Under the pieces are notes generated by a model. That model saw only the letters and a list, made by a program, of their open reading frames with translations. It ran no database searches and had not been told where the DNA came from. The position numbers and the translations under genes are program-made. Of a stretch of DNA of 64,000 nucleotides, positions 34,602-54,139 are shown in pieces (position 1 is the stretch's first letter; each line of letters begins with the position of its first letter). This DNA is from Methanocella arvoryzae MRE50 (lineage in GTDB: Archaea; Halobacteriota; Methanocellia; Methanocellales; Methanocellaceae). The DNA is taken from contig NC_009464.1 of assembly GCF_000063445.1 (NCBI RefSeq), positions 1,984,001-2,048,000 of the forward strand, read 5' to 3'.

Positions 34602-34949
34602 CGGCGCTTATCTACCCCTTATTTTTCTCTCAGCCCGGGCGTAGCAGAGCGATCGGCTTACCACAGAGGCACAGAGACGCACAGAGGTTCACAGAGAACG
34701 GTTCACCACAGAGGCCACAGAGACGCACAGAGATTTTTAATGTAATCCTCGCTGACCTTACCACACTCCCGGACCTCCTCTCCGACCTCTCTTACCTCTC
34801 TAACCTTCCAGCTTGAAAATCCTCCCCGGCCTCCCGGGTACTCCCCGACCTCCGGCTTTCCAATCGTCTAATTTTGTTCGTTCTTAAGCGAATCGTAGAC
34901 GACTGTTATATACACCTTCTTCATACCCTTGTAGATTGATGGGGTTAAC
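34602..34949. repeat. intergenic repeats: CACAGAG words, then a GACCTC-word element
   Basis: No gene is present. From 34661 to 34732 words of the form CCACAGAGGCACAGAGACGC are repeated. From about 34745 to 34861 lies an element made of words such as CGGACCTCCTCTCCGACCTC and CTCCCCGACCTCCGG. The same element occurs at 43996-44112, in both orientations at 44731-44994, and at 55056-55170. The first base of the large duplicated unit is near 34745. Confidence 0.65.
34865..34913 (+). promoter_or_regulatory. promoter and possible operator of the winged-helix gene, unit A
   Basis: CGTCTA (34865-34870) and TAGACG (34896-34901) form an inverted repeat around an inner TTCG...CGAA pair. Directly after it comes the TATA word GTTATATAC (34905-34913). 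The start ATG is 37 bases further on, after GATGGGG. The same arrangement is at 44116-44164. Confidence 0.5.
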
Positions 34950-35243
34950 ATGTCAGAATTCAGCGACGATATAGTGGCTTCGATAGGGCGAAGCTCGGTG
35001 CGGAAGAAGATTTTATTATACCTGTATCACTCCACTGCGTCCACGATGTATGACATCGCCCGGGACACGAGGACTGCCTACACCAACGCGACCGGGGCCA
35101 TCGCCGGGTTCGGGAAGAGGTACGGGAAAGAGCGCTCATTGATCCACCTCGGGCTGGTGCGGATGGAAAAGGGCAACCGGGGGCTTAATGTTTACTCGCT
35201 GACGCCAGAGGGCCGCAGGCTGGCCGACGTGCTGGATCGGTAA
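34950..35243 (+). CDS. small winged-helix regulator, unit A
   Basis: The 97-residue protein reads as one winged-helix domain: 'SSVRKKILLYLYHSTASTMYDIARDTRTAYTNATGAI' then 'LGLVRMEKGNRGLNVYSLTPEGRRLADVL', with the wing and final helix. It is identical in protein sequence to the gene at 44201, with only silent base changes. It is also a clear paralogue of the gene at 42181 (shared 'F.DDIV', 'S.VR..LL.' and 'TMYD' positions). It probably controls genes of this locus. It has its own promoter. Confidence 0.8.
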   Translation: MSEFSDDIVASIGRSSVRKKILLYLYHSTASTMYDIARDTRTAYTNATGAIAGFGKRYGKERSLIHLGLVRMEKGNRGLNVYSLTPEGRRLADVLDR

Positions 35244-35874
35244 AAGTTTAATGTGAGTGCCAGAATCGTTTGCACGAAGTATATTTTCCCTAAAACGTTT
35301 TGTACGAGTGCCCGTACCATTTACACGAAGCACTCGCTTTATGGAAAATGGAGTATTCAGGTAAAGGCTGTGAAAAATTGGAAGTTGGCCCCGTGTGAGT
35401 CGAAAATACCGCCAAGCTCGCCAAGGTGCCAAGCACTCGCTGGATGATAAATGGGGATTTTCAGGTAGAGGCTATGAAAAATTGAAAGTTAGCCCTGTGT
35501 GAGTCGAAAATACCGCCAAGCCCGCCAAGGAGCCAAGCTCGCCAAGAGCCATTTTTCATGGAACGCCAAGAAACACATTTTTCGTGGAAAGCCAAGCCAT
35601 ATTAGATATTCGTCTTAATTCTGATCGAAAAGCCCTTGGCGAGCTTGGCTTCTTGGCGTTCCATGAAAAATTAGCTCTTGGCTTCTTGGCGGGCTTGGCG
35701 GTATTTTCAACCTATACGTGGCCAACTATTAATTTTTCATAGCCTCTACCTGAATATCCATTTTTCATTAGGCGAGTGCTTGGCGGCCTACAAACACAAG
35801 ATCAGGCAACCGTAGATCAATCATGACTATACTACATATGAAACGTCAGTCGATTTCTTTTAAATCGAATATGG
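35244..35874. repeat. intergenic mobile-element-like repeats, unit A
   Basis: No gene is seen. Positions 35252-35328 carry half of the element found complete at 54835-55026 (shared words TACGAGTGCCCGTACC and ATTTACACGAAG). A left arm of the CGCCAAG element follows (35329-35432). Then comes a complete copy at 35433-35779: the left arm starting GCACTCGC and the right arm ending GCGAGTGC match in inverse over about 90 bases, including GGTAGAGGCTATGAAAAATT and GAAAATACCGCCAAG. The whole resembles a non-autonomous element with long terminal inverted repeats. Confidence 0.7.
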
Positions 35875-36654
35875 TCAGGCCGAGCTTTGCCTGTCGATGA
35901 GAGCTTTAACATCCTCTCTCAGGTAATACCTCAGGTACCTCCCGGCCGGCTCTGCCCTGATGATCTGGTCTCTCAGCAGCTTTTTCAGCTGGACGTTGGT
36001 GCCGCTGTCGGTGATGTTGATGCTGCCGGCGATCTGGGGAGTGGTGGTGCCCGGGTGGTCGTGGAGGTACGAGACGATGGACAGGGCCGTGGGGCGATTG
36101 ATGGCTGACAGGACGGTCTTTTCCCGGTCGGTATATGTATTGGAGTTCTGGAAGAGCCTGACAAACTTGTCGGACTTGACCAGGGTGATCCGGTGGGTGG
36201 ACTGGAGCTGGCCGACGTGGTAGCGGACGGTGCCGAGGTTGAGGCCTTCTTTACGGGCGATGCTGGCCACGGTCGACCCGGGGTTGTCTTTAATGTGATT
36301 GTATATCCGGTCCCTGATCTCGTTGTCCCGGGGCGTCTTCAGCTTGCCTATAATCAGCGGCCCGAACTTGAGGATCAGGGCCAGTGCAGTTGCTGATAAC
36401 GTGGCTATCCAGGTGACCTGGGTGAGCTGGATCCACAGGGGCAATTGCCAGAAGGTGATCGTGCCGTCGGCGCCGCTGGTGTCGCCGATCAGGCTGGCAT
36501 TGTCAGTCTCATTCTCAATAACGTGAGCAGGCACTACCTCATAGGGGCCCACACGCTGGATGACGTCGCTTTCGTTATATGCATGTGCTCCCGGGCCTGC
36601 CCATGCCAGCACGACGAGTAGTAAGGCCATGCAAATCAGGAGCTTCGATCGCAT
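35875..36654 (-). CDS. membrane-tethered double-winged-helix regulator, 259 aa, unit A
   Basis: The protein has a signal peptide (residues 1-25), a short outer region of about 45 residues ending 'DGTITFWQLPLWIQ', one membrane segment (about 78-98) and two cytoplasmic winged-helix domains ('NPGSTVASIARKEGLNLGTVRYHVGQL' and 'HPGTTTPQIAGSINITDSGTNVQLKKLL'). It should carry an outside signal directly to DNA (inference). It is the last gene of the leftward group in unit A and has its own 150-bp upstream gap. The copy at 45289 is identical in protein. Confidence 0.82.
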   Translation of the reverse strand: MRSKLLICMALLLVVLAWAGPGAHAYNESDVIQRVGPYEVVPAHVIENETDNASLIGDTSGADGTITFWQLPLWIQLTQVTWIATLSATALALILKFGPLIIGKLKTPRDNEIRDRIYNHIKDNPGSTVASIARKEGLNLGTVRYHVGQLQSTHRITLVKSDKFVRLFQNSNTYTDREKTVLSAINRPTALSIVSYLHDHPGTTTPQIAGSINITDSGTNVQLKKLLRDQIIRAEPAGRYLRYYLREDVKALIDRQSSA

Positions 36655-36803
36655 GAAAGTGGTATTATAATCGAGCGTGATATATAACTTTGCGGTCGTG
36701 GATATAGGGCGTAAACGGTTATCTCACAAAATGGGCTTAGCGGGCGCTGTCGATTTTCAACAATGAGCCCATGTAGTAATTACTATCGCTGCTCCGTGCC
36801 GGG

Positions 36804-37607
36804 CTAATCCTGGCCGCTGGCAATAATCATGTCTAAGGCCGGCTTCAGGTCGTTCTGGATGTAAAGCTCTTTCAGCTTCATCTTCTTCTCAGCGATGACT
36901 ATTCTGTCCCGAATATATCGACTGGTATGCCAGTGTACCGTACCCTCCGGGATGCCGAGCATCTCCGACAGCCGGGCGTTCGTAATGCCTGAATTATCTC
37001 TTATGATAATCAGGATCATCCTGCCAGTCTCACTTTTCATGGCGGCAATCAATCGCTTTTCTCTTTCAGAATAGTCGTCGGACCTCTTGAACAGCCGGAC
37101 GTATCTTCCGATCTTCTCCGTGGTGATCCTCGCCGAACGCTCCAGCATGCTGGTGTGATGTTTCACAGTGCCGAGGTTGAGGCTCTCGTTCCTGGAGATC
37201 TCGGCGGTAGTACATCCGGGGTTCTTTTCCACGTAGGTGTAAATTCTTCTTCTGTTCTGGTTTTCCAGGACATCGGCAATTTTAGCTATAATGAATGGGA
37301 TAATTTTAGCAATCCCTAACAGAGAAAATGAAAGTCCTCCGATCGCCCCAGATATGATAGCTATCTGAATCCACAACGGAAGGTCCCAGAAGGTTAGATC
37401 TCCATCAGCGCCGCCTGTAGCAGATATGTCGTCCGGATGCGGGGTGAGCACGATTTCATAGCCTGCAGCAGCGCCTCCGTTTGGACTCACGTTGCCCGGA
37501 GGGGGGCCAATTACCACCTCATACCCGCCCTCTGCATATGCTAAAGAGCAGGAAATGGCGAGAAATAAAATTAGAATTCCCACGCAGAGGTGAGGCTTCC
37601 AGTGCAT
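36804..37607 (-). CDS. membrane-tethered double-winged-helix regulator, 267 aa, unit A
   Basis: This has the same design as the downstream 259-residue protein: a signal peptide, an outer region with two repeats ('GGYEVVIGP' and 'GYEIVLTPHP'), 'DGDLTFWDLPLWIQ' before the membrane segment, then two winged helices ('NPGCTTAEISRNESLNLGTVKHH' and 'NSGITNARLSEMLGIPEGTVHWH'). It differs from the copy at 46218 by one residue in the outer region (GPPPGN here, GPYPGN there). It starts 18 bp after the secreted-protein gene on the same strand, so they are co-transcribed. Confidence 0.82.
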   Translation of the reverse strand: MHWKPHLCVGILILFLAISCSLAYAEGGYEVVIGPPPGNVSPNGGAAAGYEIVLTPHPDDISATGGADGDLTFWDLPLWIQIAIISGAIGGLSFSLLGIAKIIPFIIAKIADVLENQNRRRIYTYVEKNPGCTTAEISRNESLNLGTVKHHTSMLERSARITTEKIGRYVRLFKRSDDYSEREKRLIAAMKSETGRMILIIIRDNSGITNARLSEMLGIPEGTVHWHTSRYIRDRIVIAEKKMKLKELYIQNDLKPALDMIIASGQD

Positions 37608-37625
37608 GGGCTATTAATTAGTCTT

Positions 37626-38081
37626 TCAAATAGTATAACTTTGCGTTCCTGACACACTATGCCCATAGACCTCGTATTTCCATGTCCCCTGTGCGATGCC
37701 GTTGGAATTCCTTATGTTAATGCTGATTTTACCATCGATCACTCCGTCGGCATTGTCGTAAAATGGTCCGAAGGTAATCTTATCCGGAGAATATACATTC
37801 AGTCTCAGGGAGTTCGCGGAATTCCCCCAGTCCAGATCAACAGGCAGATTCGTATAGTAGCCGCTGACAGTTTTATAGTGCAGGTTTAAATTTCCCTGAG
37901 TAATCGATCCGGATATGGTTAATATTCCAAATGACCATGGGTAACTTGTCCCGGGCTCCACAATATATCCGCCTTTGCTCTCATAATCCGCATCTACGTT
38001 CGATGCGACAGCCGTACCTGCCGTGAGGAAAACGGCAGCTAAAAAGGTTGCAAACACGATGGTGCGACGATAGTTTGGCAT
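37626..38081 (-). CDS. secreted beta-rich protein, 151 aa, unit A
   Basis: After a signal peptide ending near 'VAS' the mature part of about 125 residues is all-beta: 'FGILTISGSITQGNLNLHYKT', 'LRLNVYSPDKITFGPFYDNADGVIDGKISINI', 'GTWKYEVYGHSVSG'. This pattern resembles pre-peptidase C-terminal or related jelly-roll domains. The ATG at 38081 follows GGTGGTTAC and is better than the start at 38108. The copy at 47040 is identical. It lies between the RCC1 gene and the two membrane regulators and might be an outside partner for them. Confidence 0.7.
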   Translation of the reverse strand: MPNYRRTIVFATFLAAVFLTAGTAVASNVDADYESKGGYIVEPGTSYPWSFGILTISGSITQGNLNLHYKTVSGYYTNLPVDLDWGNSANSLRLNVYSPDKITFGPFYDNADGVIDGKISINIRNSNGIAQGTWKYEVYGHSVSGTQSYTI

Positions 38082-38288
38082 GTAACCACCAAACGATCGT
38101 TTGATCAACTTGTCTTAACTGGCCTCTACTAATCGTCTAGGAAAAATAATTATAATATTTAAAGTATAATATTAGATCTAATGTCCAGATCGACAATACA
38201 CATGGTGCTTTACTTTACTGGACATTTCCAACAAAGTCAGTACTAAGGTTTTATCGATTGCAGCCATTGGAGTTGAAAGGGCAGGGGG

Positions 38289-39731
38289 TCACATGCCTTT
38301 TCTTCTCACGAATCCTTTCAGCAGTCCTACGATAATTAACAAGCTGCAAAGTCCGGCGATGTTGTTGAAGCCGAAGCCCGGGGTAGATTCAGGGGTTACG
38401 CTTGGTAACGGGACTGGAGTCGGAGAAACCGGGGCTACTGCTGCAGGCTTGGATGTTTCAGTCGAATTATCCTCCATGTTAGGAATAGCGGTATACGTAG
38501 GTGCCTGCGCTGGTGTCGAAGTCACCAAAGAGGTACCTGTTACTGCCCGTAAATCCACATGGAGATCGGTCACCTGCACAGCATAGGGTTTGCCGCCTAT
38601 GCCAGAGATTTCTCCATTACCCAGCTCACCATGTTTATTACATCCCCATGCCCAGACTGTGCCATCCTTCTTAACGCCGAGTAGGTGCTGACTACCCGTT
38701 GCGATTGAGACGATGTCTGTGAAGCCCGCCAGCTTTACAGGCGTGTTGCTGTCGAGGGAATTTTGTCCATCATAGCAGTAGGGATTACTACCCCATGCCC
38801 AGACGGTACCATCCTTCTTCAAAGCTGCATAATAATCAACTCCGCTGCCGATCTCAATGACGTTGCTCATCCGTGGCACGGGGTGAGGGGAAGAAACGAT
38901 AGAGCTGGTTGGGAAACTGGAATCGCCGGCCACCCAGTATGTATTGTCACCCCAACCGTAAACTTGTCCAACCTCATCCAGCGCCAGCACGCTGGAGGCA
39001 GACACGAACTCATCGTTGACACCAAAGCACATGGACTCAGCGCTGACCTCTTTAACGTTAGCAAGCCGCATCCTGACCGGCGTATCCCGAGAGACGTTAG
39101 TACCATCATTTAGCTGGTAATCCCTGTTTTCGCCCCAGCTCCACCACGAACCGTCATCCTTCAGCACATACACAAAACTCGACGTCACAACTATATTACT
39201 GACATCACTCACGGGGCACTGTACTGGATCGTAAATATGCTCTGTATGTAAAATATCATCCATACTCAGGCATAGCTCACTTCCGCACATCCAGAGGCTG
39301 CCATCCTCCTTTACCATGTATACAGAACTGCCAGAGCTTGTGCAGGCGACAAATTTCACATCAGATATAGGGATCTGGATAGGCATAGTGCTGTTATCGC
39401 CAGGATAAGCACCAGCACAGTTTGCTGGCAGGTTTCCCCAGGCCCAAACTGTTCCGTCATCTTTTAACGCTACAGCACACCCGGCAGTACCCGGGGCTAT
39501 CATCTTCACATGATCGATAAACGACAGCCTGGTCGGATGTGCATACTTCTCATTGAGAAAACTACCCCACACCCAGACATTACCGTCAACATCCACCGCA
39601 TAGCTAGTAAAGCCTCCTGCGTATACTTCCTTTACAGTGACAGCTCCAGCGGTCACCGGTATAATCGCGACCAAACCTGATAGCAGAACCAGAATGATAA
39701 CAGGTTTAATATAATTCTTACACATAATCAC
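38289..39731 (-). CDS. RCC1-repeat surface protein with PGF-CTERM tail, unit A
   Basis: The protein of about 480 residues has a signal peptide, then RCC1-type beta-propeller repeats recognisable by 'ALKDDGTVWAWG', 'ALKKDGTVWAWG' and 'GVKKDGTVWAWG', then a Thr/Pro/Ser-rich stalk. The end 'STPGFGFNN' plus a hydrophobic segment and the basic tail 'RRKGM' fits the PGF-CTERM signal processed by archaeosortase A. It should be a cell-surface protein. The GTG at 39731 overlaps the stop of the permease gene (GTGA); an ATG at 39725 is an alternative. It is only moderately similar to the unit B protein at 47706. Confidence 0.85.
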   Translation of the reverse strand: MIMCKNYIKPVIILVLLSGLVAIIPVTAGAVTVKEVYAGGFTSYAVDVDGNVWVWGSFLNEKYAHPTRLSFIDHVKMIAPGTAGCAVALKDDGTVWAWGNLPANCAGAYPGDNSTMPIQIPISDVKFVACTSSGSSVYMVKEDGSLWMCGSELCLSMDDILHTEHIYDPVQCPVSDVSNIVVTSSFVYVLKDDGSWWSWGENRDYQLNDGTNVSRDTPVRMRLANVKEVSAESMCFGVNDEFVSASSVLALDEVGQVYGWGDNTYWVAGDSSFPTSSIVSSPHPVPRMSNVIEIGSGVDYYAALKKDGTVWAWGSNPYCYDGQNSLDSNTPVKLAGFTDIVSIATGSQHLLGVKKDGTVWAWGCNKHGELGNGEISGIGGKPYAVQVTDLHVDLRAVTGTSLVTSTPAQAPTYTAIPNMEDNSTETSKPAAVAPVSPTPVPLPSVTPESTPGFGFNNIAGLCSLLIIVGLLKGFVRRKGM

Positions 39732-40531
39732 AAGTTATCACCTTTCGTGTATACGGACATCGCAACCAGACAGATGAGAACGATCGCTGCCGCGAGGAAA
39801 AACAGGTTGAGTAGGTTAGCGCTGAACCACTGGCTGACCGTTAAAGAAGTACTCTGAAGATTGGCTGCGCTACTGATATACAGGTTGCACATCGCACTTC
39901 TCGGGCTGAAATTCCTCAGGCCTGGAAGCAGCCACGTCCAGCCGACATAGCCGTCCATGAATATATACGCTATAGCCACTGTGGTCGAGATCAGTAAATC
40001 CCTAAAAATAATACTGATCAGCAAAGCGATAGCCAGCGTTATAGACGTATAGCAGAACGCGATTATAACGTATATAACGATCTTAGCGAGAAAATCTAGG
40101 GGATTCGTAGGGGTGAAATAAAATAGTGATAGCACCAATCCTGCAAGAAGCATACTGTAAACAATAATTGCTAGCATATAGCAGTTTAAACCCAGGAACT
40201 TCCCCGCGAGAAGATCTCTCCGGTATACAGGCTTGGATAAAACGATGTTCAGCGAATGATTCCGTCTCTCCTCAGCGACCGACATCACACCTATAAACAC
40301 GGCAACGACCACACCATAGATCGACGTGAACATAAATGTCTGACCGATACAATAGTACAGGCCAGCTTCATCGGGTCCTCCTATAAAGTTCGCAGCAGTA
40401 CCGCCAGCCCCGTTTAAAACCGCTAAAAACGACAACAGGAGAACAATCACCGGAGTCATTGGATGATAAAACACTCGGGCAAACTCATTCAGGGCAATAT
40501 TAATAAGTACGTTGAACGGATTCCGGTACAT
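39728..40531 (-). CDS. ABC-2 type permease, second of the pair, unit A
   Basis: This 267-residue membrane protein has six segments, with the N-terminal pattern 'INIALNEFARVFYHPMTPVIVLLLSFLAVLNG' and the coupling helix region 'EERRNHSLNIVLSKPVYRRDLLAGKFLG' typical of ABC-2/LanE-LanG-type permeases. It overlaps the first permease gene by one base (TGATG) and the RCC1 gene by GTGA, so all are translationally coupled. No ATPase is in this operon; the nearest is the divergent gene at 42543, which is broken, and the intact one in unit B. Confidence 0.85.
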   Translation of the reverse strand: MYRNPFNVLINIALNEFARVFYHPMTPVIVLLLSFLAVLNGAGGTAANFIGGPDEAGLYYCIGQTFMFTSIYGVVVAVFIGVMSVAEERRNHSLNIVLSKPVYRRDLLAGKFLGLNCYMLAIIVYSMLLAGLVLSLFYFTPTNPLDFLAKIVIYVIIAFCYTSITLAIALLISIIFRDLLISTTVAIAYIFMDGYVGWTWLLPGLRNFSPRSAMCNLYISSAANLQSTSLTVSQWFSANLLNLFFLAAAIVLICLVAMSVYTKGDNL

Positions 40532-41412
40532 CAGGCCACATCCCTCCGCAGAAATATAATGTAGCTTATAATAACCAGAATAACCACATACAAGAGCAAT
40601 TTAACAACATTGGGCATCGATTCAGATAAAGCCAGGATCAAGTCATTAGAAGGCCTCAGGATATTGTTGCTCTCGATAGGTTTTTTAAAAATGCTACTCA
40701 TGATACCGTTCGGTATGAAATCGTGGAATGGATTACCGGTATTAAAGTTCATGCCGAGCAGAGTAGTTAACTTCCCGGAAATTTCCACCGAAAGGGCGTC
40801 GACAAAAAAACACTTTACCATCATGCTCAGGATCAGTGCGAAGGCAAGGTCGGTTACGATCAGTGATATCAGCATGGATAAGGAGAAGAAAAACAGCACA
40901 TAGAGCAATGAAATTAGTGCTATAATCGGAAGCCTGACGAAATATCCCTCGGCCAACGAGATAAAAGAGCCGCCCCAAAAAAACTGAATGTAACCTGTAT
41001 AAATTAAAATGGAAAGGACGAAGATAGATAAGATAAATAGAGAACAGCCGAGTAGCTTTCCGTTAAGTATAGTGTCACGGTAGAGTGGCTTTACTGTCAA
41101 AGTATTCAAAGTATTATTGTACCGTTCTGCAGCCACAGTATATACGCCGAGAACCATCCCGAAAAATGCCCCATAATACCATAGGACATATCCGATGTTC
41201 CAGAGAAGAACGGACGTATAATAATCAGAATCCCCTACCCCCATCATATGAATCATAGAAAGCGTCTGTGAGTAAGCCTCATTCCCGGGCGCCTGAATCT
41301 CGATCATAACTTTGACAAATAGCAAGACATAGATGGCGCCAATTACGAGAATCAGCTTACTTCGCAACAGGTTAGTATACTCATTTACAGCTATGACACC
41401 GATATTTCTCAA
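40531..41412 (-). CDS. ABC-2 type permease, first of the pair, unit A
   Basis: The 293-residue protein has six membrane segments. The conserved stretch 'AAERYNNTLNTLTVKPLYRDTILNGKLLG' matches its partner and the unit B protein 'SSERFSNAINTLIVKPLYRDTVINGKLLG' at 49904. Outside such patches the two units differ greatly. Two permeases of 250-290 residues next to each other and served by a separate ATPase resemble LanFEG-type exporters that remove peptides from the membrane. This assignment of role is an inference. Confidence 0.85.
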   Translation of the reverse strand: MRNIGVIAVNEYTNLLRSKLILVIGAIYVLLFVKVMIEIQAPGNEAYSQTLSMIHMMGVGDSDYYTSVLLWNIGYVLWYYGAFFGMVLGVYTVAAERYNNTLNTLTVKPLYRDTILNGKLLGCSLFILSIFVLSILIYTGYIQFFWGGSFISLAEGYFVRLPIIALISLLYVLFFFSLSMLISLIVTDLAFALILSMMVKCFFVDALSVEISGKLTTLLGMNFNTGNPFHDFIPNGIMSSIFKKPIESNNILRPSNDLILALSESMPNVVKLLLYVVILVIISYIIFLRRDVA

Positions 41413-41478
41413 CAGACTCCCTCCGAAAAAAGGGCCACCTAGGTACCTATGTGGCTATCTCGATACTCCACAACCATT

Positions 41479-41928
41479 TTAAGTCACTGTGATGGTTTCC
41501 TGATCCGTCGACGTGAAGTAATTATTCAGACCCCACCAGAACCCAAGGCAAATATTGTAGGGCTTATTCGCACCATAATTTGTACTACTCGCCGTCACGG
41601 TCGTGGACCTCTCTTGAGACTGACCTGGCGCACTTAGCAGATCCCTGTAGAGAACCTGATTATACTGTGGCGACGTGTAAATACTGGAATAACAGTATAC
41701 ACCATCTATATTACCCGAAATATCATCGGTAGCATACACCCATTTACAGGTCTCGGAAAAAGTACTACCTCGTGCAACAGTAAAACTGTTACTCGGATCG
41801 TTATCCCATCCTGCGCTTGGCCCATCATTCAACGATGCCTGCGGCACCATTGCCGACGCGTTTCCGCTGGCGACCACCGCAAGTATTATTGCGGCAAACG
41901 CCAATACAAAGACTTTGTTGTATTTCAC
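41479..41928 (-). CDS. small secreted protein, unit A variant
   Basis: The 149-residue product has a 25-residue signal peptide ('MKYNKVFVLAFAAIILAVV..' to 'NASA') that is almost identical to that of the gene at 50797. The mature part ('MVPQASLNDGPSAGWDND...') has no visible similarity to the other. It contains two cysteines and is Ser/Thr/Asn/Tyr-rich. The start is GTG at 41928 after GGAGT. It is the first gene of the leftward operon, directly before two ABC-2 permeases, so it is a candidate exported substrate or effector. I recognise no family. Confidence 0.75.
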   Translation of the reverse strand: MKYNKVFVLAFAAIILAVVASGNASAMVPQASLNDGPSAGWDNDPSNSFTVARGSTFSETCKWVYATDDISGNIDGVYCYSSIYTSPQYNQVLYRDLLSAPGQSQERSTTVTASSTNYGANKPYNICLGFWWGLNNYFTSTDQETITVT

Positions 41929-41950
41929 GATACTAACTCCATTTATTGTT

Positions 41951-42024: not shown

Positions 42025-42123
42025 CTACCTCTCGTTGATAGGTACTTATTTTGGGCTAATTTTTGATGAATAGTATAAAATAAATAATATAGCGCACGAT
42101 TCCTAGGCGATTAGGAGAGGCCA

Positions 42124-42172: not shown

Positions 42173-42180
42173 GGTATAAA

Positions 42181-46217: not shown

Positions 46218-47021
46218 CTAATCCTGGCCGCTGGCAATAATCATGTCTAAGGCCGGCTTCAGGTCGTTCTGGATGTAAAGCTCTTTCAGCTTCATCTTCT
46301 TCTCAGCGATGACTATTCTGTCCCGAATATATCGACTGGTATGCCAGTGTACCGTACCCTCCGGGATGCCGAGCATCTCCGACAGCCGGGCGTTCGTAAT
46401 GCCTGAATTATCTCTTATGATAATCAGGATCATCCTGCCAGTCTCACTTTTCATGGCGGCAATCAATCGCTTTTCTCTTTCAGAATAGTCGTCGGACCTC
46501 TTGAACAGCCGGACGTATCTTCCGATCTTCTCCGTGGTGATCCTCGCCGAACGCTCCAGCATGCTGGTGTGATGTTTCACAGTGCCGAGGTTGAGGCTCT
46601 CGTTCCTGGAGATCTCGGCGGTAGTACATCCGGGGTTCTTTTCCACGTAGGTGTAAATTCTTCTTCTGTTCTGGTTTTCCAGGACATCGGCAATTTTAGC
46701 TATAATGAATGGGATAATTTTAGCAATCCCTAACAGAGAAAATGAAAGTCCTCCGATCGCCCCAGATATGATAGCTATCTGAATCCACAACGGAAGGTCC
46801 CAGAAGGTTAGATCTCCATCAGCGCCGCCTGTAGCAGATATGTCGTCCGGATGCGGGGTGAGCACGATTTCATAGCCTGCAGCAGCGCCTCCGTTTGGAC
46901 TCACGTTGCCCGGATAGGGGCCAATTACCACCTCATACCCGCCCTCTGCATATGCTAAAGAGCAGGAAATGGCGAGAAATAAAATTAGAATTCCCACGCA
47001 GAGGTGAGGCTTCCAGTGCAT
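46218..47021 (-). CDS. membrane-tethered double-winged-helix regulator, 267 aa, unit B
   Basis: This is the copy of the gene at 36804. One residue differs (Tyr in 'GPYPGN' instead of Pro) and it lies in the outer region, which is the part expected to meet the signal. The rest, including both DNA-binding domains, is the same. It follows the secreted beta-rich protein gene by 18 bp. Confidence 0.82.
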   Translation of the reverse strand: MHWKPHLCVGILILFLAISCSLAYAEGGYEVVIGPYPGNVSPNGGAAAGYEIVLTPHPDDISATGGADGDLTFWDLPLWIQIAIISGAIGGLSFSLLGIAKIIPFIIAKIADVLENQNRRRIYTYVEKNPGCTTAEISRNESLNLGTVKHHTSMLERSARITTEKIGRYVRLFKRSDDYSEREKRLIAAMKSETGRMILIIIRDNSGITNARLSEMLGIPEGTVHWHTSRYIRDRIVIAEKKMKLKELYIQNDLKPALDMIIASGQD

Positions 47022-47039
47022 GGGCTATTAATTAGTCTT

Positions 47040-47495
47040 TCAAATAGTATAACTTTGCGTTCCTGACACACTATGCCCATAGACCTCGTATTTCCATGTC
47101 CCCTGTGCGATGCCGTTGGAATTCCTTATGTTAATGCTGATTTTACCATCGATCACTCCGTCGGCATTGTCGTAAAATGGTCCGAAGGTAATCTTATCCG
47201 GAGAATATACATTCAGTCTCAGGGAGTTCGCGGAATTCCCCCAGTCCAGATCAACAGGCAGATTCGTATAGTAGCCGCTGACAGTTTTATAGTGCAGGTT
47301 TAAATTTCCCTGAGTAATCGATCCGGATATGGTTAATATTCCAAATGACCATGGGTAACTTGTCCCGGGCTCCACAATATATCCGCCTTTGCTCTCATAA
47401 TCCGCATCTACGTTCGATGCGACAGCCGTACCTGCCGTGAGGAAAACGGCAGCTAAAAAGGTTGCAAACACGATGGTGCGACGATAGTTTGGCAT
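47040..47495 (-). CDS. secreted beta-rich protein, 151 aa, unit B
   Basis: The protein is identical to that at 37626. The start ATG at 47495 follows GGTGGTTAC. Sequence identity between the units stops about 80 bases upstream of this gene, so this is the last conserved gene before the variable middle section. Confidence 0.7.
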   Translation of the reverse strand: MPNYRRTIVFATFLAAVFLTAGTAVASNVDADYESKGGYIVEPGTSYPWSFGILTISGSITQGNLNLHYKTVSGYYTNLPVDLDWGNSANSLRLNVYSPDKITFGPFYDNADGVIDGKISINIRNSNGIAQGTWKYEVYGHSVSGTQSYTI

Positions 47496-47705
47496 GTAAC
47501 CACCAAACGATCGTTTGATCAACTTGTCTTAACTGGCCTCTACTAATCGTCTAGGAAAAATAATTATAATATTCAGCGTATGGGATTAGATTTAAAGTAC
47601 CAGATCGACAATACACATGATGCTTTCCTTCTTTATCTAACAATTTCCTAATGTCAGTAATAGGGTTCTATCGATTGCAGCCATTGAAGTTGAAAAGGCA
47701 GGAAG

Positions 47706-49082
47706 TCACCTGCCTTTTCTTCTCACGAATCCTGTCAGTAGTCCTACGATAATTAACAAGCTGTAAAGTCCGGCGATGTTGTTGAAGCTGAAGCCTGGTG
47801 TTGTGACAGGCGTATTGGGCGTGACCGTGCTTATATCGTTAAGAGTGCCCGGAAATGATGAATTATTTATGGCCGTGTTCGTCGGCTCAATCATCTGAGT
47901 AGATGTCGTCACAGGTGAACCTTCAAGGAGCATAACTGGCTCGGCTACATATTTACCATGATCTAGTAACGCATTATAGTGGTTATCTCCCCATCCCCAG
48001 ATACTGCCATCCTCTTTTAACACGATACAGCATTGATCCCCTGCGGCTATGTCCACTACTTGATCAAGACCACTAATCTGGTAAGGTGTCGACGTACCTT
48101 GCACGTTATTATACATTGTTCTGCCGTCGATGAACTTACCCCAGAACCAGACAGTACCGTCACGCTTAAGCGCCACAGTGTGATAAAAAGTGGAGGATAT
48201 CTTTTCTACATCTGATATTTTTGCCTGCACCCGGGTATTGGTAATCTCCTCAACGAACGGGGGACAACAGGAAGAATTCTGGTTACCATCTCCTAGTTCA
48301 CCATAAAATTTGCCGCCCCATCCCCACACGGTACCATTATTCTGAAGATATAGTGTGTAAGATTCCCCGCCTCTGATAATTTGCTTAACATTCTGGAGGC
48401 CACCCACCTGGAATGGCGTCCGTACCCCAGGCCCTGTCGTATCACCGAGGGCACCGTATGAAATCGTATAATAATCGCCGTAGTCGTTACTTCCCCATGC
48501 CCAGACTGTGCCATCACCCTTAATGGCGAACGATCCTTTTTCGCCCAGGGCAACAATGTCCGTCAGCCCATTTATTTGGGCCGGTATCAACCGATTCTCA
48601 GTGGTATCATCACCAAGTGCACCATTATAATTATTACCCCATGCCCAGACTGTGCCATCGTCCTTTAAAGCATAACAGCCATAACCACAAGCAATGGCAG
48701 TCACATTGGTGAGATCGGTCACCTGCACCGGAGAATATTTAGGTTCGGTCCCGCCATTTCCTAGACTACCATCCGCTCCATTTCCCCATGCCCAGACTGT
48801 GCCGTCCTTCTTCAAAGCCAGGCTATTGGAGCCCGATGCGGCGATAGCGGTCACATTATCGATGAGGACTTTCTGAGGAGTCTTTTGCGAGTTTCCGGCC
48901 ACACCAATGCCTAGTTCACCCATACGGTTATGTCCCCACGCTAACACGGTCCCATCGTCATTTAAGGCGAGCACATGTCCGCCACCCGCTGCTATTGAAG
49001 TCACTCTCGCTTCGGCAGTACACGGCAATACCACTATGAACAATATTGCTAAGAATGCTATGGATGTAAGTTTGAAGTACAA
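47706..49082 (-). CDS. RCC1-repeat surface protein with PGF-CTERM tail, unit B
   Basis: The 458-residue protein has a signal peptide, about seven RCC1 repeats more regular than in unit A ('ALNDDGTVLAWGHNRMGELG', 'ALKKDGTVWAWGNGADGSLG', 'ALKDDGTVWAWGNNYNGALG'), a Thr/Pro-rich stalk and the end 'TTPGFSFNN' plus hydrophobic segment and 'RRKGR'. The last 30 residues are nearly the same as in unit A, while the propellers differ in most positions. It lies 15 bp after the permease gene. RCC1 propellers bind proteins; the target here is unknown. Confidence 0.87.
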   Translation of the reverse strand: MYFKLTSIAFLAILFIVVLPCTAEARVTSIAAGGGHVLALNDDGTVLAWGHNRMGELGIGVAGNSQKTPQKVLIDNVTAIAASGSNSLALKKDGTVWAWGNGADGSLGNGGTEPKYSPVQVTDLTNVTAIACGYGCYALKDDGTVWAWGNNYNGALGDDTTENRLIPAQINGLTDIVALGEKGSFAIKGDGTVWAWGSNDYGDYYTISYGALGDTTGPGVRTPFQVGGLQNVKQIIRGGESYTLYLQNNGTVWGWGGKFYGELGDGNQNSSCCPPFVEEITNTRVQAKISDVEKISSTFYHTVALKRDGTVWFWGKFIDGRTMYNNVQGTSTPYQISGLDQVVDIAAGDQCCIVLKEDGSIWGWGDNHYNALLDHGKYVAEPVMLLEGSPVTTSTQMIEPTNTAINNSSFPGTLNDISTVTPNTPVTTPGFSFNNIAGLYSLLIIVGLLTGFVRRKGR

Positions 49083-49097
49083 GTTTCTCTCTCCATT

Positions 49098-49907
49098 TCA
49101 GATTTTGTCTTCCCTGGTGAACAGGTGGATGCCTGCCAGCAGGAATACGAGTATTTCGATGAGCATGAGCCCGATATATGGGACTGCGCTGGAAAACCAC
49201 AAGGTGAACGGAGTAAGCGTATCGTACAGAGTCGGATACAGGGTTGTGATCGGATTGATAAGCTTGTTATACAGGTTCATCGGGGTTAAAAAGGCAAGGT
49301 TGCCCAGCATACGGTCGTTATTCCAGATCCAGTCGAAGTAGATATAGGTCATGGCTGCTGAGGTGACCACTAGGATGTTTTTAGACAGAACACCGATCAG
49401 CATATTTAACGCAATCACCAGAGAGCAGGACATTGTCATTACAATGATGTACGCTATGACCCGAAGCAGGAAATCCGAAACGGATAAGGGCTCTCTGAAG
49501 TAGACTATGATCAGAAGGCCGGTAAACATGACGGCAAAGGTGTTGAAGACCAGCATAAACGCGGTCAGTCCAACGAATTTTCCGGCAATATAATCTTTTC
49601 TGTACAGGGGTTTGGTAAAAAGCACGTTTAGGGTATGTTTCCACTTTTCATACGGGATCGTGGTGGCCCCGAGAAACGCTGCCATAATCGTGCAGATCAT
49701 AGACGTAGCCTGCCAGGACTGGCCGAAGCCAACCATGACCGCGTCCAGATCAGCCTGCGCATTTACGATCTCAAGAGTATCTACACCGCCAGCACCGTTG
49801 ATATAAGCTACCGCTAGTACGATACCACCTACCAGGAGTGCTAACGGATGGGTTAGAGTATGAGTAAACTCCTGCATTGCGATCATAAGCATAACCCTCA
49901 TATTCAC
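49098..49907 (-). CDS. ABC-2 type permease, second of the pair, unit B
   Basis: The 269-residue protein has six membrane segments. 'AMQEFTHTLTHPLALLVGGIVLAVAYINGAGG' and 'YEKWKHTLNVLFTKPLYRKDYIAGKFVG' place it with the ABC-2 permeases and with its counterpart at 39728, from which it differs in most residues. It overlaps the first permease gene by four bases (ATGA type). The functional ATPase is probably the product of the divergent gene at 51867. Confidence 0.85.
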   Translation of the reverse strand: MNMRVMLMIAMQEFTHTLTHPLALLVGGIVLAVAYINGAGGVDTLEIVNAQADLDAVMVGFGQSWQATSMICTIMAAFLGATTIPYEKWKHTLNVLFTKPLYRKDYIAGKFVGLTAFMLVFNTFAVMFTGLLIIVYFREPLSVSDFLLRVIAYIIVMTMSCSLVIALNMLIGVLSKNILVVTSAAMTYIYFDWIWNNDRMLGNLAFLTPMNLYNKLINPITTLYPTLYDTLTPFTLWFSSAVPYIGLMLIEILVFLLAGIHLFTREDKI

Positions 49908-50743
49908 AAAATATCCCTCTTCACGAAGACGATATAACTCAGAACTAAACAGATGATCATGTACAGAAGCAACTGTAAGAAATCCGGAAGACAGTCGAGA
50001 AACGCATCGTAAGCATCTACCCCCGTGTTCATGATCAAAGGCTGAGCATGCTCCAATATTCCCCTCGGCGACAACTTCACCAGCAGACCACCCAATCCTG
50101 AACCGGGCAAGATATTGTCAATATAAGCGGATATTGTATAGAAGTAGACGATCAGAGACAAATACACGGTAAGAATGCTAAGAATCATTGCGAAAGCCTG
50201 ATCCCTGACCAGCAATGAGATCAGCATCGACAGCAGCAAGAACACCAACACGTAGATCAAGGCGAATATCAAAACGAAAGGCAGACGGGCCAGGTAATCG
50301 AGTAAATAGGCAGAAAAGGCATTACCGCATAATATTAGAAATCCCGCCGTAAATGTGGCAATGATCAAAACCATCGTAAATGTGAGAAAAGCGATCGAGC
50401 CAAGCAACTTCCCGTTAATAACCGTATCCCGATACAACGGCTTAACAATCAAAGTATTAATGGCATTACTGAAACGCTCCGAAGAAATCGTCGAACATCC
50501 TATAATAATACCAATCAATGTGCCAATCCAGGTTATCGAATAAAAGATCGAGTTAGCACAGGCAACCCCAGGATTATCTTGAAACAATACAGTAACCCCT
50601 GGCCTGCCCCCGAAAAAAACGATACTATAGTCATAAATAACGAATATTGAATATACCAAATAAGCTATAATAACAACAAGAACCACTGGATTACTCAACA
50701 AATCCACGAATTCTTTCCTGGCCATGACCATTATGTTACTCAT
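49904..50743 (-). CDS. ABC-2 type permease, first of the pair, unit B
   Basis: The 279-residue protein has six membrane segments and begins 'MVMARKEFVDLLSNPVVLVVIIAYLVYS'. The coupling region 'SSERFSNAINTLIVKPLYRDTVINGKLLGS' is shared with the unit A protein. It is the second gene of the leftward operon, 53 bp after the small secreted protein gene. Together with its partner and the ATPase it would form a complete exporter. Confidence 0.85.
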   Translation of the reverse strand: MSNIMVMARKEFVDLLSNPVVLVVIIAYLVYSIFVIYDYSIVFFGGRPGVTVLFQDNPGVACANSIFYSITWIGTLIGIIIGCSTISSERFSNAINTLIVKPLYRDTVINGKLLGSIAFLTFTMVLIIATFTAGFLILCGNAFSAYLLDYLARLPFVLIFALIYVLVFLLLSMLISLLVRDQAFAMILSILTVYLSLIVYFYTISAYIDNILPGSGLGGLLVKLSPRGILEHAQPLIMNTGVDAYDAFLDCLPDFLQLLLYMIICLVLSYIVFVKRDIL

Positions 50744-50796
50744 AAAATCCTCACTAAAAAAAATAAAAGTTTAGGAGTTCATCCTCAGCCGTTCAT

Positions 50797-51252
50797 TTAA
50801 TAAAACGTCATCTGCGAATTTACCGGAGATGTGTAGCTGTATGAGCCATCCCTGTACGAGTGAGTCGCCTGAATCGTATAGGAGTTCGACCAATCGTCGA
50901 CCAGAGTCTGGAATGTGTTGGAGGTAACACTGTTCTGCGACATGCCGAAAGTGTTTTCAGTATTGTATAACACGTCAGCATACTGGCCAAAGCGGTTTGT
51001 TGCGAATGCATCATTGTAAACTGTGACGCTTCTGCCAACATTGTTGTGCATAGTGTTAAACCAGGTAAGCAGATCGCTACCACTGGTTACATCCCGAGAT
51101 CCGGACGAGTACCCGTTTACTGATGGATAACTACCCGAATAGGTCGTTTCAAACGTGCCATCATATGGTGATGCCGCAAATGCGCTTCCGCTGGCGACCA
51201 CCGCAAGTATTATTGCGGCAAACGCCAATACAAAGACTTTGTTGTATTTCAC
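50797..51252 (-). CDS. small secreted protein, unit B variant
   Basis: The 151-residue product has nearly the same 25-residue signal peptide as at 41479 (ending 'SAFA' instead of 'NASA') but a different mature domain: 'SPYDGTFETTYSGSYPSVNG...' with many Ser, Tyr, Thr and Asn and no cysteine. Base identity between the units starts abruptly at TTCCGCTGGCGACC (51186 here, 41862 in unit A), inside the signal-peptide coding part. It begins with GTG at 51252. I recognise no family; it is the likely cargo or effector of the adjacent transporter. Confidence 0.75.
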   Translation of the reverse strand: MKYNKVFVLAFAAIILAVVASGSAFAASPYDGTFETTYSGSYPSVNGYSSGSRDVTSGSDLLTWFNTMHNNVGRSVTVYNDAFATNRFGQYADVLYNTENTFGMSQNSVTSNTFQTLVDDWSNSYTIQATHSYRDGSYSYTSPVNSQMTFY

Positions 51253-51274
51253 GATACCAAATCCATTTATTGTT

Positions 51275-51348
51275 CGGCAGGCATTGCCTTGCCTGCCGAT
51301 TTATTGTTTTACAAGAGGAATTATATAAAGTAGTATTGATACGTATCA
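51275..51348. promoter_or_regulatory. leftward promoter region with hairpin and TGATACGTATCA palindrome, unit B
   Basis: The region is the same as in unit A: the CGGCAGGC/GCCTGCCG stem, a TATA word (AATTATATAAAG) and the palindrome at 51337-51348. Two base differences near the ribosome site (GGATT instead of GGAGT) may lower translation of the unit B secreted protein. Confidence 0.55.
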
Positions 51349-51447
51349 CTACCTCTCGTTGATAGGTACTTATTTTGGGCTAATTTTTGATGAATAGTAT
51401 AAAATAAATAATATAGCGCACGATTCCTAGGCGATTAGGAGAGGCCA

Positions 51448-51496
51448 TTTATATACACCTACTTATTAACCCCTTATTATAGTGAGTTAAGGGGTT
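51448..51496 (+). promoter_or_regulatory. rightward promoter with 9-bp inverted repeat, unit B
   Basis: TTTATATAC (51448-51456) and the arms AACCCCTTA (51468-51476) and TAAGGGGTT (51488-51496) repeat the unit A arrangement exactly. Confidence 0.55.
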
Positions 51497-51504
51497 GGTA
51501 TAAA

Positions 51505-51870
51505 ACGGAAAATTTCCAGGACGATATAGTTCAAACCAAAGAGAGCCGCAGACGTGAGCGTCTGGAGGGGCTTAAAGAACTTGGCTTTGACGTCTACTAT
51601 TCGCTGTCACGGAGCACGGTCAGGCAAGAATTACTCTTGTTTTTGAAGGCCGTCGGGAAAACGACCACAATGTATGATGCGTCCAAGCTGACAAAGCTGG
51701 GCTATACCAACATCAAGCTGGCCGTTATCGGTGATGACCGGAAGTACAAGAGAATGTATTCACTTGTAAATACCGGTCTTGTCTGCTGTGAAGAGGTTGA
51801 GGACCGCTGCTACCTTACTCTGACTGATAAAGGGGCAAGGGCAGCTCTCGTGCTGGAGGCCTCCAGATGA
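51505..51870 (+). CDS. winged-helix regulator with apparent ACG start, unit B
   Basis: This is the same gene as at 42181, again with ACG where the paralogue has ATG, so the change is older than the last exchange between the units or has been copied between them. The coding region is complete and without stops, which suggests that it is still used. Its stop overlaps the ATG of the ATPase gene (ATGA), so its translation matters for the next gene. Confidence 0.65.
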   Translation, partial: TENFQDDIVQTKESRRRERLEGLKELGFDVYYSLSRSTVRQELLLFLKAVGKTTTMYDASKLTKLGYTNIKLAVIGDDRKYKRMYSLVNTGLVCCEEVEDRCYLTLTDKGARAALVLEASR

Positions 51871-52802
51871 TCGAGACGCAGAGCCTGACCAGGCTTTATG
51901 ATCAGAAGGCAGTGGTCAACAACCTGAGTTTCAGCGTAGGTGCAGGTGAAATCTTCGGCTTTCTGGGGCCGAACGGCGCTGGGAAGAGCACGACGATGAA
52001 GATGCTTCTCGGGCTGGTGCAGCCCACTTCGGGCACGGGCAAGGTGGCCGGTCACGATATTATCCACGATGTGCTGGAGGTGAGAAAGGCTTGCGGTGTC
52101 CTTCCCGATCCTTATGGTTTCTACGAGAATCAGACTGCGTGGCAGAACCTCGAATTCTACTGCAAACTATACGGTATTCGTGGCAAGGAACTGGAAGAGA
52201 AGGTGGATAAGACGCTGGATAAGGTCGGCCTTCACGATGCCAAGCACAAGAAGGTACACAAGTTCAGCAAAGGCATGAAGCAAAGGCTCGGCGTCGCCCA
52301 GGTCATCGTCCACGATCCACCAGTGATGATGTTCGACGAGCCCACCGCCGGCATAGACCCTCAGGGAGCCGAGGACTTCCGCAACCTCATGCTGGAAATG
52401 AAAGCGAAGGGTAAGACCATTTTCCTGACTTCGCATGTCATGCCCGAAGTAGAGGCGATCTGCGATCGTATCGGTATCATCGTGAACGGCGAGATGAAGA
52501 TCTGCGGCAACGTCGATCAACTGGTGGACCAGTTCTCCCGTAGGCAGGGTTACCAGCTCAGATTAAGAGTAAAAGAGATCGACGAGCCGGTCGTGAGGAA
52601 TTCCATTTCAGGCATTACCGGCATCTCCTCTGTCGCCAGGAATAATGGTTTCTATGTGATCAATGCTTCTGAGGACGTCTCGGAAGACGTGTCCCGGGCT
52701 GTATGCAGGACCGGCGGTCTGGTCACCGAGTTAGACGTGTACCGGCCTACGTTGAACGAGATCTTCTTAGAGGTCACCCGGCCTGTTCAGGTGAAAGAAT
52801 GA
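51867..52802 (+). CDS. ABC transporter ATPase (NatA/DrrA/LanF type), unit B
   Basis: The 311-residue protein has Walker A 'GPNGAGKS' (residues 34-41), signature 'FSKGMKQRLG' (133-142), Walker B 'VMMFDEPTAGID' (about 153-164), the switch histidine in 'IFLTSHVMPEVEAICD', and a C-terminal extension (DUF4162 type). It should energise ABC-2 permeases. It is the only intact ATPase of the locus, so it may serve both permease pairs. It is coupled to the surface-protein gene by ATGA at 52799-52802. Confidence 0.93.
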   Translation: MIETQSLTRLYDQKAVVNNLSFSVGAGEIFGFLGPNGAGKSTTMKMLLGLVQPTSGTGKVAGHDIIHDVLEVRKACGVLPDPYGFYENQTAWQNLEFYCKLYGIRGKELEEKVDKTLDKVGLHDAKHKKVHKFSKGMKQRLGVAQVIVHDPPVMMFDEPTAGIDPQGAEDFRNLMLEMKAKGKTIFLTSHVMPEVEAICDRIGIIVNGEMKICGNVDQLVDQFSRRQGYQLRLRVKEIDEPVVRNSISGITGISSVARNNGFYVINASEDVSEDVSRAVCRTGGLVTELDVYRPTLNEIFLEVTRPVQVKE

Positions 52803-54139
52803 AGCTCTCAACTAGATTACTCCTCCCAATCCTCCTTTCCATATTTTTAGTTACCACCTCCACCTCAGCCCTCGCCGACAGTCCCGTCACTGTTCTGGTG
52901 AAGGATAAGAATGGGGCGGTCGGCGGGGCCCTGGTGTCCGTGCAGGTCAACGGCGTCACCCATTCTACGCAGACCGATCTGAACGGTATCGGCAACTTCT
53001 CCCTGCCCCCGGGCCAGTACTACTTCACCGCCTCAAAAACAGGATATGCGAGTGGAAGTGGAACTGCAACGGTCGGCGACAATTCCACGGTTACTATCAC
53101 TCTCACTAACCTCTACACGTTAAGCGGCACCGTGATCGATTCGGCTACTGGCCAGCCAGTAAAGGATGCTGCAATAACGATCACTAACAAGGAGACTGAT
53201 AAGTCGTACACCGGCGGCACTAATGACAACGGCGTATTCAGCATTCCCGTCTCCAACGGTTACTACAGTGTTACTGTCAGGGCTCCATTCTACCAGCTAA
53301 CCGTAATGGATGACAAGGGTGCAGGGTACCACGTGCTGGACAGCAGCCTGTACATCGGGTACCTGCCAATTGCTACTGATAATAATATTACTAGTTTGAA
53401 CGGCGTGAAGCTGACTACAGATTACCCTGGGAAAGTCATCAAAGTCAACCAGACTGTCACCTTCGACGTCACGTTGACTAACAATGGTATCGTGGATAAG
53501 TCGTACGCTGTCAGTGTAAAGGATGCTCCCGCCGGGTGGAACGTTCAATTACTGTCCGGCTCGGACGTGATCAGCCGGGTCTTCGTAGAGAAAGGAACGT
53601 CTAAGACCTTCCAGGTCAAGACTACTCCTTTATCGGCAGGCAATAATGTGATTACCATTATCGCTGGCAGTGAAGGCGACTCGGGCCAGGTACAGTTATA
53701 CGTGGACTCCACAGAGGATACTGATTACAAGATAGAGTTCTCCTTACCAGATAATCTTAGCCTCGCTGCCGGAACGAGTAAAAATGTTGATGTCTACGTT
53801 AAGAATAATGGCAGTGGTAAGCTTTCCAGTGTAAGGATTGACATCGGGAGCGATGATGTGCCGGAATCGCTGAACGCAGAGGTAGTGACTCGGGAAGCTG
53901 GCGAGCTCAGCCCGGGCGAGTCGAAGCGGTTCGTAGTCAAGATAACGGCCAAGGCTGACGCCTCCGAAGGCACTGACAGACTGTACATGCGAGCGGTGAG
54001 CGCTGAGGCGAAGACGGAGCAGAAGTACGTCGAAGTAAGTGTGACCCGGAGCAATTCCTGGCTCGGCATCGGCATCGGTGTAGCGTTACTAGCGATTCTG
54101 GCCTTCGGCTTCATCGTCTGGAAATACGGCCGCCGCTAA
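52799..54139 (+). CDS. membrane-anchored surface protein with carboxypeptidase-regulatory and NEW3-like domains
   Basis: The 446-residue protein has a signal peptide (residues 1-27), two carboxypeptidase-regulatory-like beta domains ('VLVKDKNGAVGGALVSVQVNG' and 'LSGTVIDSATGQPVKDAAITI'), two NEW3/CARDB-like domains ('VTFDVTLTNNGIVDKSYAVSV' and 'KNVDVYVKNNGSGKLSSVRID') and a C-terminal membrane helix with the tail 'WKYGRR'. Start and ATPase stop overlap, so it is made together with the ATPase. Archaeal ABC-2 transporters are often accompanied by such proteins. The one beginning beyond 64000 has a similar end. Confidence 0.85.
   Translation: MKLSTRLLLPILLSIFLVTTSTSALADSPVTVLVKDKNGAVGGALVSVQVNGVTHSTQTDLNGIGNFSLPPGQYYFTASKTGYASGSGTATVGDNSTVTITLTNLYTLSGTVIDSATGQPVKDAAITITNKETDKSYTGGTNDNGVFSIPVSNGYYSVTVRAPFYQLTVMDDKGAGYHVLDSSLYIGYLPIATDNNITSLNGVKLTTDYPGKVIKVNQTVTFDVTLTNNGIVDKSYAVSVKDAPAGWNVQLLSGSDVISRVFVEKGTSKTFQVKTTPLSAGNNVITIIAGSEGDSGQVQLYVDSTEDTDYKIEFSLPDNLSLAAGTSKNVDVYVKNNGSGKLSSVRIDIGSDDVPESLNAEVVTREAGELSPGESKRFVVKITAKADASEGTDRLYMRAVSAEAKTEQKYVEVSVTRSNSWLGIGIGVALLAILAFGFIVWKYGRR

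Follow-up and report, generated by a model that had tools for sequence, protein, structure and literature searches.

We analysed a stretch of 64,000 nucleotides (the window), comprising positions 1984001-2048000 of the single 3,179,916-base contig of Methanocella arvoryzae MRE50. The window carries a tandem duplication of an ATP-binding cassette (ABC) transporter locus, with unit A at 34744-42894 and unit B at 43995 to ~54139 (unit and gene coordinates are window positions). Common to both units are an EarA-like winged helix (PF07381), two membrane-tethered regulators (reg1 and reg2), the secreted protein s160, an RCC1 protein, two ABC-2 permeases, a small secreted protein, a second EarA-like frame and an ATPase. 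We observed that the permeases and their surface partner, which form a cassette in the middle of each unit, belong to distinct branches of a cassette family, while the flanking genes are nearly identical over sharp-edged tracts. These observations point to gene conversion around old, exchangeable cassettes that may be powered by a common motor.

Anatomy of the two units

From the DNA self-comparison, we observed 96-98% identity between 34744-35481 and 43995-44730, between 35551-38384 and 44998-47801, and between 41858-42894 and 51182-52218. No long match was seen between 38385-41857 and 47802-51181, where just 30-58 bp fragments of RCC1 repeats aligned. An earlier reading of this sequence (the original prediction) had described two tandem units sharing one gene order, with near-identical ends and a diverged middle. 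Self-comparison and domain matches bear out the two units and their gene content. The order is also the same in both, except that the ATPase of unit A is truncated by an insertion sequence (IS) and is not followed by a NEW3-domain membrane protein; the complete ATPase and the NEW3 protein are found in unit B only. The contrast of ends and middle was likewise seen, with the qualification that the identity is uneven, being concentrated in 35677-38159 and 41938-42781, and that A and B also share the signal peptide of their small secreted proteins and the anchor at the C-terminus of their RCC1 proteins, so that divergence begins at the mature parts. The features are as follows; L-numbers are labels of compared genomic loci, and GC3 is the G+C content at third codon positions.

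34950-35243, + strand: unit A small EarA-like winged helix, 97 amino acids; PF07381 E 2e-31; protein identical to that of 44201-44494
35875-36654, - strand: unit A reg1, signal/transmembrane (TM) segment and two winged helices; HTH_24 and HTH_HVO_0163_N matched on the identical B copy; within the conversion tract 35677-38159
36804-37607, - strand: unit A reg2, membrane-tethered double winged helix; one amino acid different from the B copy
37626-38108, - strand: unit A s160, secreted 160-amino-acid protein with an all-beta model; adjoins reg2-like genes in L051, L047, L137 and L142
38289-39731, - strand: unit A cassette surface protein with an RCC1 propeller, TM-anchored at the C-terminus; 63% to L041, 34% to unit B; GC3 0.51
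39728-40531, - strand: unit A cassette ABC-2 permease 2; 65% to L041, 27% to unit B
40531-41412, - strand: unit A cassette ABC-2 permease 1 (NosY-like); 61% to L041, 34% to unit B
41479-41928, - strand: unit A cassette small secreted protein, 149 amino acids; signal peptide as in unit B, mature part different
42139-42546, + strand: unit A second EarA-like winged-helix frame before the ATPase, start codon uncertain; DNA same as unit B; PF07381 match at G000:C1:2026268-2026525
42543-42908, + strand: unit A ATPase, IS-truncated, ~118 of 311 codons remaining
42896-43951, no strand: insertion sequence bounded by 16-bp terminal inverted repeats; encodes a DDE transposase at 42924-43937, PF01609 E 1.6e-21
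44201-44494, + strand: unit B EarA-like winged helix; PF07381, 108 bits against a curated cut-off of 22
45289-46068, - strand: unit B reg1; HTH_24, HTH_HVO_0163_N
46218-47021, - strand: unit B reg2
47040-47522, - strand: unit B s160 secreted protein
47706-49082, - strand: unit B cassette surface protein with an RCC1 propeller, TM-anchored at the C-terminus; RCC1 E 4e-47
49098-49907, - strand: unit B cassette ABC-2 permease 2; PF12679 E 1.7e-17
49904-50743, - strand: unit B cassette ABC-2 permease 1 (NosY-like); PF12679 E 2.3e-14; conserved loop at residues 94-114
50797-51252, - strand: unit B cassette small secreted protein, 151 amino acids
51463-51870, + strand: unit B second EarA-like winged-helix frame, with an ATGA overlap at the start of the ATPase; PF07381 E 5.5e-14, 52 bits
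51867-52802, + strand: unit B ATPase of DrrA/NosF type; the genome has two intact copies, of which this is one
52799-54139, + strand: unit B NEW3/CarboxypepD_reg protein, carrying a signal peptide and, at the C-terminus, a TM helix; PF13620, PF10633; 95% to L046, 54-57% to the copies of Methanocella sp. PtaU1.Bin125

In neither unit does an ATG or GTG start precede the domain of the second EarA-like frame (51463-51640 in unit B), which may reflect an unusual start or a misreading. A dispersed, partly palindromic repeat of ~120 bp, located between the EarA-like and reg1 genes in both units, occurs at 35328-35784, 44579-45198 and 10320-10532 and at about 50 more places in the genome. Pyrimidine-rich degenerate repeats (CCTCTCTGACCT-like) at 43968-44104, 44736-44994 and 55058-55205 flank the units and the trp genes, and possibly represent a second intergenic repeat family.

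The cassettes form a family of old paralogues

We compared the permease-1 family among M. arvoryzae, PtaU1.Bin125 and two other Methanocellales genera, together with a phylum-wide search. Exactly eight members were found in M. arvoryzae and four in PtaU1.Bin125, the scores falling from 290 to 88 bits below these, and none in the two other genera; the cassette family is known so far from one Methanocella lineage. The usual order is an EarA-like gene divergent from the small secreted protein, permease 1, permease 2 and the RCC1 protein. The small secreted gene is present in seven of the eight M. arvoryzae cassettes (the L045 copy lies at 7086-7526 of that locus). At L044 and L046 an anchored protein of 277-280 amino acids stands in place of RCC1, the one at L044 with weak SdrD_B/SpaA-type matches.

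The closest relative of the unit A cassette is not its neighbour in unit B. At L041, which lies at 3.11 Mb, 1.09 Mb away, the RCC1 protein shares 63% identity with that of unit A, permease 2 65% and permease 1 61%; for unit B the corresponding values are 34%, 27% and 34%. In the trees, A and L041 were grouped at 100% support for permease 1, permease 2 and RCC1 alike; L044 fell with L046 in both permease trees, and the permease 1 and RCC1 trees placed L042 with cassette b of PtaU1.Bin125. As judged from these identities and trees, the cassettes are old paralogous blocks in which permeases and propeller were inherited together.

The original prediction had proposed that cargo and the matching transporter/receptor diversify under a control that stays common, and had suggested seeking the same gene order in other Methanocellales and comparing variability gene by gene. 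Joint variation of cargo, transporter and surface partner, against constant control and a constant motor, was indeed observed, and it recurs at other loci and in a second species, PtaU1.Bin125. The motor is the slowly changing part: between the two Methanocella species, the ATPase is 66-75% and the NEW3 protein 54-57% identical, and the permeases mostly 22-38%.

The GC3 of cassette genes averaged 0.51, compared with 0.80 in 23 other genes of the window (p 3e-10), the ATPase and NEW3 genes being intermediate; this is compatible with horizontal arrival of the cassettes. One could then imagine a polymorphic surface used in kin recognition, in which cassettes swapped between strains change surface identity and the frame serves as a recombination platform. 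Whole cassettes do differ inside constant flanks, their GC3 is low, and the two Methanocella genomes share them only as distant orthologues (35-45% identity, against 70-85% for TrpE/TrpGD). However, selection between close cassette pairs is purifying, not diversifying, no gene for a partner or for immunity was identified, and polymorphism is judged here from one strain; we regard this explanation as unlikely.

Gene conversion of the shared frame

Two tracts stand out in the comparison of the units.

35677-38159, no strand: left conversion tract common to unit B; 2483 bp with 3 substitutions, ending abruptly on the right
41938-42781, no strand: right conversion tract common to unit B; 0 differences in 844 bp

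Just past the left tract (38160-38384), 39 of 225 aligned bases differ (Fisher p 3e-40). The right tract ends abruptly within the ATPase gene, with 13 differences in the next 113 bp (clustering P ~5e-13). Because the ATPase segment past this tract is ~11% diverged between A and B, we consider the two units to be paralogues of older date, homogenised in part. At L046, 490 kb off, the ATPase-NEW3 pair is 80-92% identical in DNA to that of unit B and 97-100% identical over most of a 600-bp patch, which also looks like conversion. The form of the tracts argues that the near-identical ends are the product of gene conversion around distinct old cassettes. Diversification of the middle in place after a recent duplication, as had been supposed originally, is rejected, since the A cassette is sister to the one at 3.11 Mb and the tracts are sharp-edged.

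The same data bear on another explanation, namely that ABC exporters for different small molecules or lipids simply multiplied as paralogues and that the ends are alike only because the tandem duplication is recent. ABC-2 exporters often expand, and the ATPase is DrrA-like with ABCA lipid transporters as its best PDB matches. This explanation nevertheless seems unlikely: the middles, 27-34% identical in protein and with A closest to L041, are too old for a recent duplication, one of the sharp edges of identity lies inside a gene, and permeases, propeller and secreted protein move together.

A scarce and repeatedly broken motor

M. arvoryzae has eight cassettes and only two intact matching ATPases (100% and 95% identity), besides the truncated one of unit A; the next relative is 41% identical. 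The unit A ATPase was severed at about codon 118 by the IS with its 16-bp inverted ends. In PtaU1.Bin125, a second tandem arrangement adjoins trp genes. The ATPase and NEW3 genes of cassette a are intact there, and cassette b is accompanied by an EarA-like gene, an internally deleted ATPase, no NEW3 gene and then a second trpA copy. At the Methanosarcina locus L133, a broken ATPase and a 22-residue NEW3 remnant stand beside open cassette genes. The dN/dS ratio (nonsynonymous to synonymous substitution), where computable, was 0.11-0.15 between the cassettes of A and L041, neither of which has an intact ATPase in cis. As motors are scarce, as cis ATPases are broken beside open cassettes, and as dN/dS is low, the cassettes appear to have been retained without an ATPase of their own, which suggests that they use a common one in trans.

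As a separate observation, the two trpA copies that flank cassette b in PtaU1.Bin125 (L050:9421-16231) are ~80% identical in DNA, so that the tandem arrangement there takes in trp sequence.

Permeases related to NosY

Both permeases were assigned to PF12679. When the permease-1 profile (A2) was searched against the PDB, the sole match was NosY (E 3e-11, positions 1-270 of 273). The most conserved stretch in both permeases is a loop with a KPLYR motif (0.84 and 0.71, against median windows of 0.41 and 0.46), which we take, from what is known of ABC-2 transporters, to be the cytoplasmic ATPase-docking loop. The ATPase matches NosF (E 1.8e-43), yet ABCA-type and other DrrA-type chains score higher, so that this match is not specific.

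NosDFY is the ABC machine that matures nitrous oxide reductase, and its target is exported by another route, as we hold to be the case for the secreted protein of the cassettes. The likeness lies in the full-length homology of permease 1 to NosY, in the single DrrA/NosF-type ATPase and in an extracytoplasmic partner encoded with the transporter. Unlike NosDFY, which has a NosY homodimer and a NosD beta-helix, the present systems have two distinct permeases, an RCC1 or WD40-type propeller with a NEW3 protein, and many cassettes per motor. No nos genes were seen among the cassette genes.

The original prediction had likened the two small permeases and single ATPase to LanFEG, an arrangement that is also that of GldAFG and SagGHI, and had considered a bacteriocin-like system. 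In such a system, the small secreted protein would be a toxin that the permeases and ATPase expel from the producer membrane. The size of the permeases (250-290 amino acids), the co-varying small secreted protein and the match of the ATPase to the lantibiotic-protection model TIGR03740 (E 8e-57) agree with this, as do weak matches of the permeases to SagH and GldF. However, the lantibiotic scores of the ATPase lie under the curated cut-offs and are equalled by many other families, the SagH and GldF matches do not reach cut-off, and an NCBIfam scan of the four permeases yielded no LanE/LanG lantibiotic permease model at E <= 0.1, NosY being their only PDB relative by sequence. Neither modification enzymes nor precursor-like short peptides were found in the units (open reading frames, Pfam/NCBIfam), nor any toxin or immunity signature, and the anchored propeller, the NEW3 protein and the Sec-exported partner that belong to the unit here have no LanFEG counterpart that is generally known. 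The small secreted proteins carry Sec-type signal peptides, as called by eye; hence an ABC exporter is not needed for their leaving the cell. Taken together, a LanFEG-like immunity or peptide-bacteriocin function is very unlikely. Our literature search found nothing on archaeal LanFEG systems or on these clusters. A known anti-phage defence system was also considered and dropped, PADLOC giving just generic ATPase and winged-helix matches.

Regulators and secreted proteins

Of the ten PF07381 matches in the genome, nine are located at cassettes and the remaining one is weak (24 bits); the family is missing from the two related genera that lack cassettes. EarA is described as regulating the archaellum in Methanococcus and Pyrococcus (PMC5512572, PMC10665913), and in Methanococcus as activating archaellum genes (PMC5512572). 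The small winged helices here are in the same Pfam family, above its curated cut-off, but they are tied to transporter cassettes. For the tethered regulators, a precedent is offered by the membrane-bound winged-helix proteins described as regulating Sulfolobus surface structures (PMC6396743).

The reg2 homologues of Methanosarcinaceae and other Methanocellales adjoin s160 homologues, and the s160-reg2 pair recurs beside several other ABC clusters in Methanocellales and in a second archaeal family. This association indicates that s160 is probably the extracellular partner of reg2. A neighbouring ABC locus (ATPase, ~390-amino-acid permease, NEW3-like protein; L047:581-6042, genome 2047.6-2053.0 kb) is divergent from an s160-like and reg2-like pair, and a similar arrangement adjoins trp genes in another Methanocellales genome (L142). 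Elsewhere in the window (6429-8525), a 698-amino-acid extracytoplasmic protein ends in a reg2-type tethered double winged-helix module, as do at least six other large proteins of the genome.

Several assignments were tried and rejected. A PPC domain (PF04151) for s160 had no Pfam match and no significant PDB match of the predicted structure; a small secreted protein of the second archaeal family matches PPC weakly (E 0.012, under cut-off). A cupredoxin-like fold for the small secreted protein was dropped, the best match being rusticyanin (E 0.02, TM-score 0.3) without conserved copper ligands. The inverted repeats ahead of the small secreted gene differ at each locus and have none in common, which speaks against a shared palindromic operator. 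The PGF-CTERM signal that had been read at the end of the RCC1 protein proved to be a visual resemblance; no NCBIfam CTERM model significantly matched the C-terminal ends, and we found no paper linking RCC1 with PGF-CTERM in archaea.

Relatives in a second archaeal family

The phylum-wide search returned distant permease homologues, nearly all in one other archaeal family, which by its gene content is probably the Methanosarcinaceae (L133-L140). On the Methanocella profile, the best of these permeases scored 135 bits, compared with about 290-316 for the Methanocella members. Their loci encode a small secreted protein, two permeases, a NEW3 protein and an ATPase, often with several permease pairs per ATPase, and the s160-reg2 pair is present at several of them. 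They resemble the Methanocella units in this, except that a large secreted PD40/WD40-type propeller protein stands where Methanocella has RCC1. The role of the propeller would therefore seem to be constant and to be filled by different protein families.

Discussion

We propose that the units encode exchangeable cassettes of an envelope machine, powered by a common motor with a NosDFY-like action, and embedded in a frame that is kept alike by conversion; we would put the probability of this explanation at roughly 0.5. Each cassette, consisting of the permease pair, a small protein exported by Sec and an anchored partner outside the cell (usually the RCC1 propeller), would move or duplicate as a block, and most carry their own EarA-like winged helix. 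The common motor would consist of the DrrA/NosF-type ATPase and the membrane-anchored NEW3 protein, one or two of these serving the M. arvoryzae cassettes. Most M. arvoryzae cassettes, having no motor in cis, would probably borrow one in trans via the conserved cytoplasmic loop of both permeases. ATP hydrolysis would then most likely drive the permease pair to act on the extracytoplasmic propeller and NEW3 protein, by which the small exported protein may be released, folded or placed at the surface. We infer this action, the use of a motor in trans and any ecological role; what the data show directly is the anatomy, the kinship of the cassettes, the conversion-like tracts, the scarcity and breakage of motors and the association of the regulators. 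In this scheme, s160 together with the tethered reg2 would monitor the envelope and regulate expression. Non-allelic gene conversion would homogenise the frame (the reg1/reg2/s160 block, the signal peptide, the second EarA-like frame and the ATPase), and the cassettes between would remain different.

Several points weigh against this explanation. With regard to the motor, three of the four PtaU1.Bin125 cassettes have an intact adjoining ATPase, so that sharing is clearer in M. arvoryzae than there, and other DrrA-type ATPases of M. arvoryzae (33-42%) might serve some cassettes. The KPLYR loop is conserved in NosY-type permeases generally, which is compatible with a shared motor and is no proof of sharing, and the dN/dS of 0.11-0.15 is a time average that cannot date the loss of the cis ATPase. 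With regard to NosDFY, no NosD beta-helix or CASH family was found by Pfam among the unit proteins, which have RCC1, CarboxypepD_reg and NEW3 domains instead. The structural models of s160 and of the small secreted protein, all-beta with predicted local distance difference test (pLDDT) scores of 70 (AlphaFold2) and 68, respectively, are of modest confidence and gave no significant fold match (against the PDB for s160), and L041 has no recognisable small secreted gene beside its permeases. As for the exchange of cassettes, the evidence at the species level comes from one M. arvoryzae strain, the co-divergence statistics depend on few close pairs, and the low GC3 of the cassettes (0.51) may equally stem from expression level or gene age. 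No cassette donor turned up in the phylum-wide search or among the viral contigs and PLSDB plasmids, which contained no cassettes.

A bolder version of the proposal is a combinatorial methanogen surface machine, in which a constant ATPase/NEW3 motor would serve a library of horizontally acquired, exchangeable cassettes and the homogenised frame, with its sensor-regulators, signal peptide, anchor and motor, would act as a docking platform where cassettes are exchanged; this we consider possible, if rather doubtful.

How methanogens build and change their surface is little understood, and few roles have been assigned to archaeal propeller-type surface proteins. If the proposal of exchangeable cassettes on a common motor is true, the block-wise inheritance of permeases, propeller and exported protein would offer a concrete handle on the methanogen surface. 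Identical ends with different middles in tandem copies can come from gene conversion around exchangeable cassettes, and this bears on the interpretation of similar loci elsewhere.

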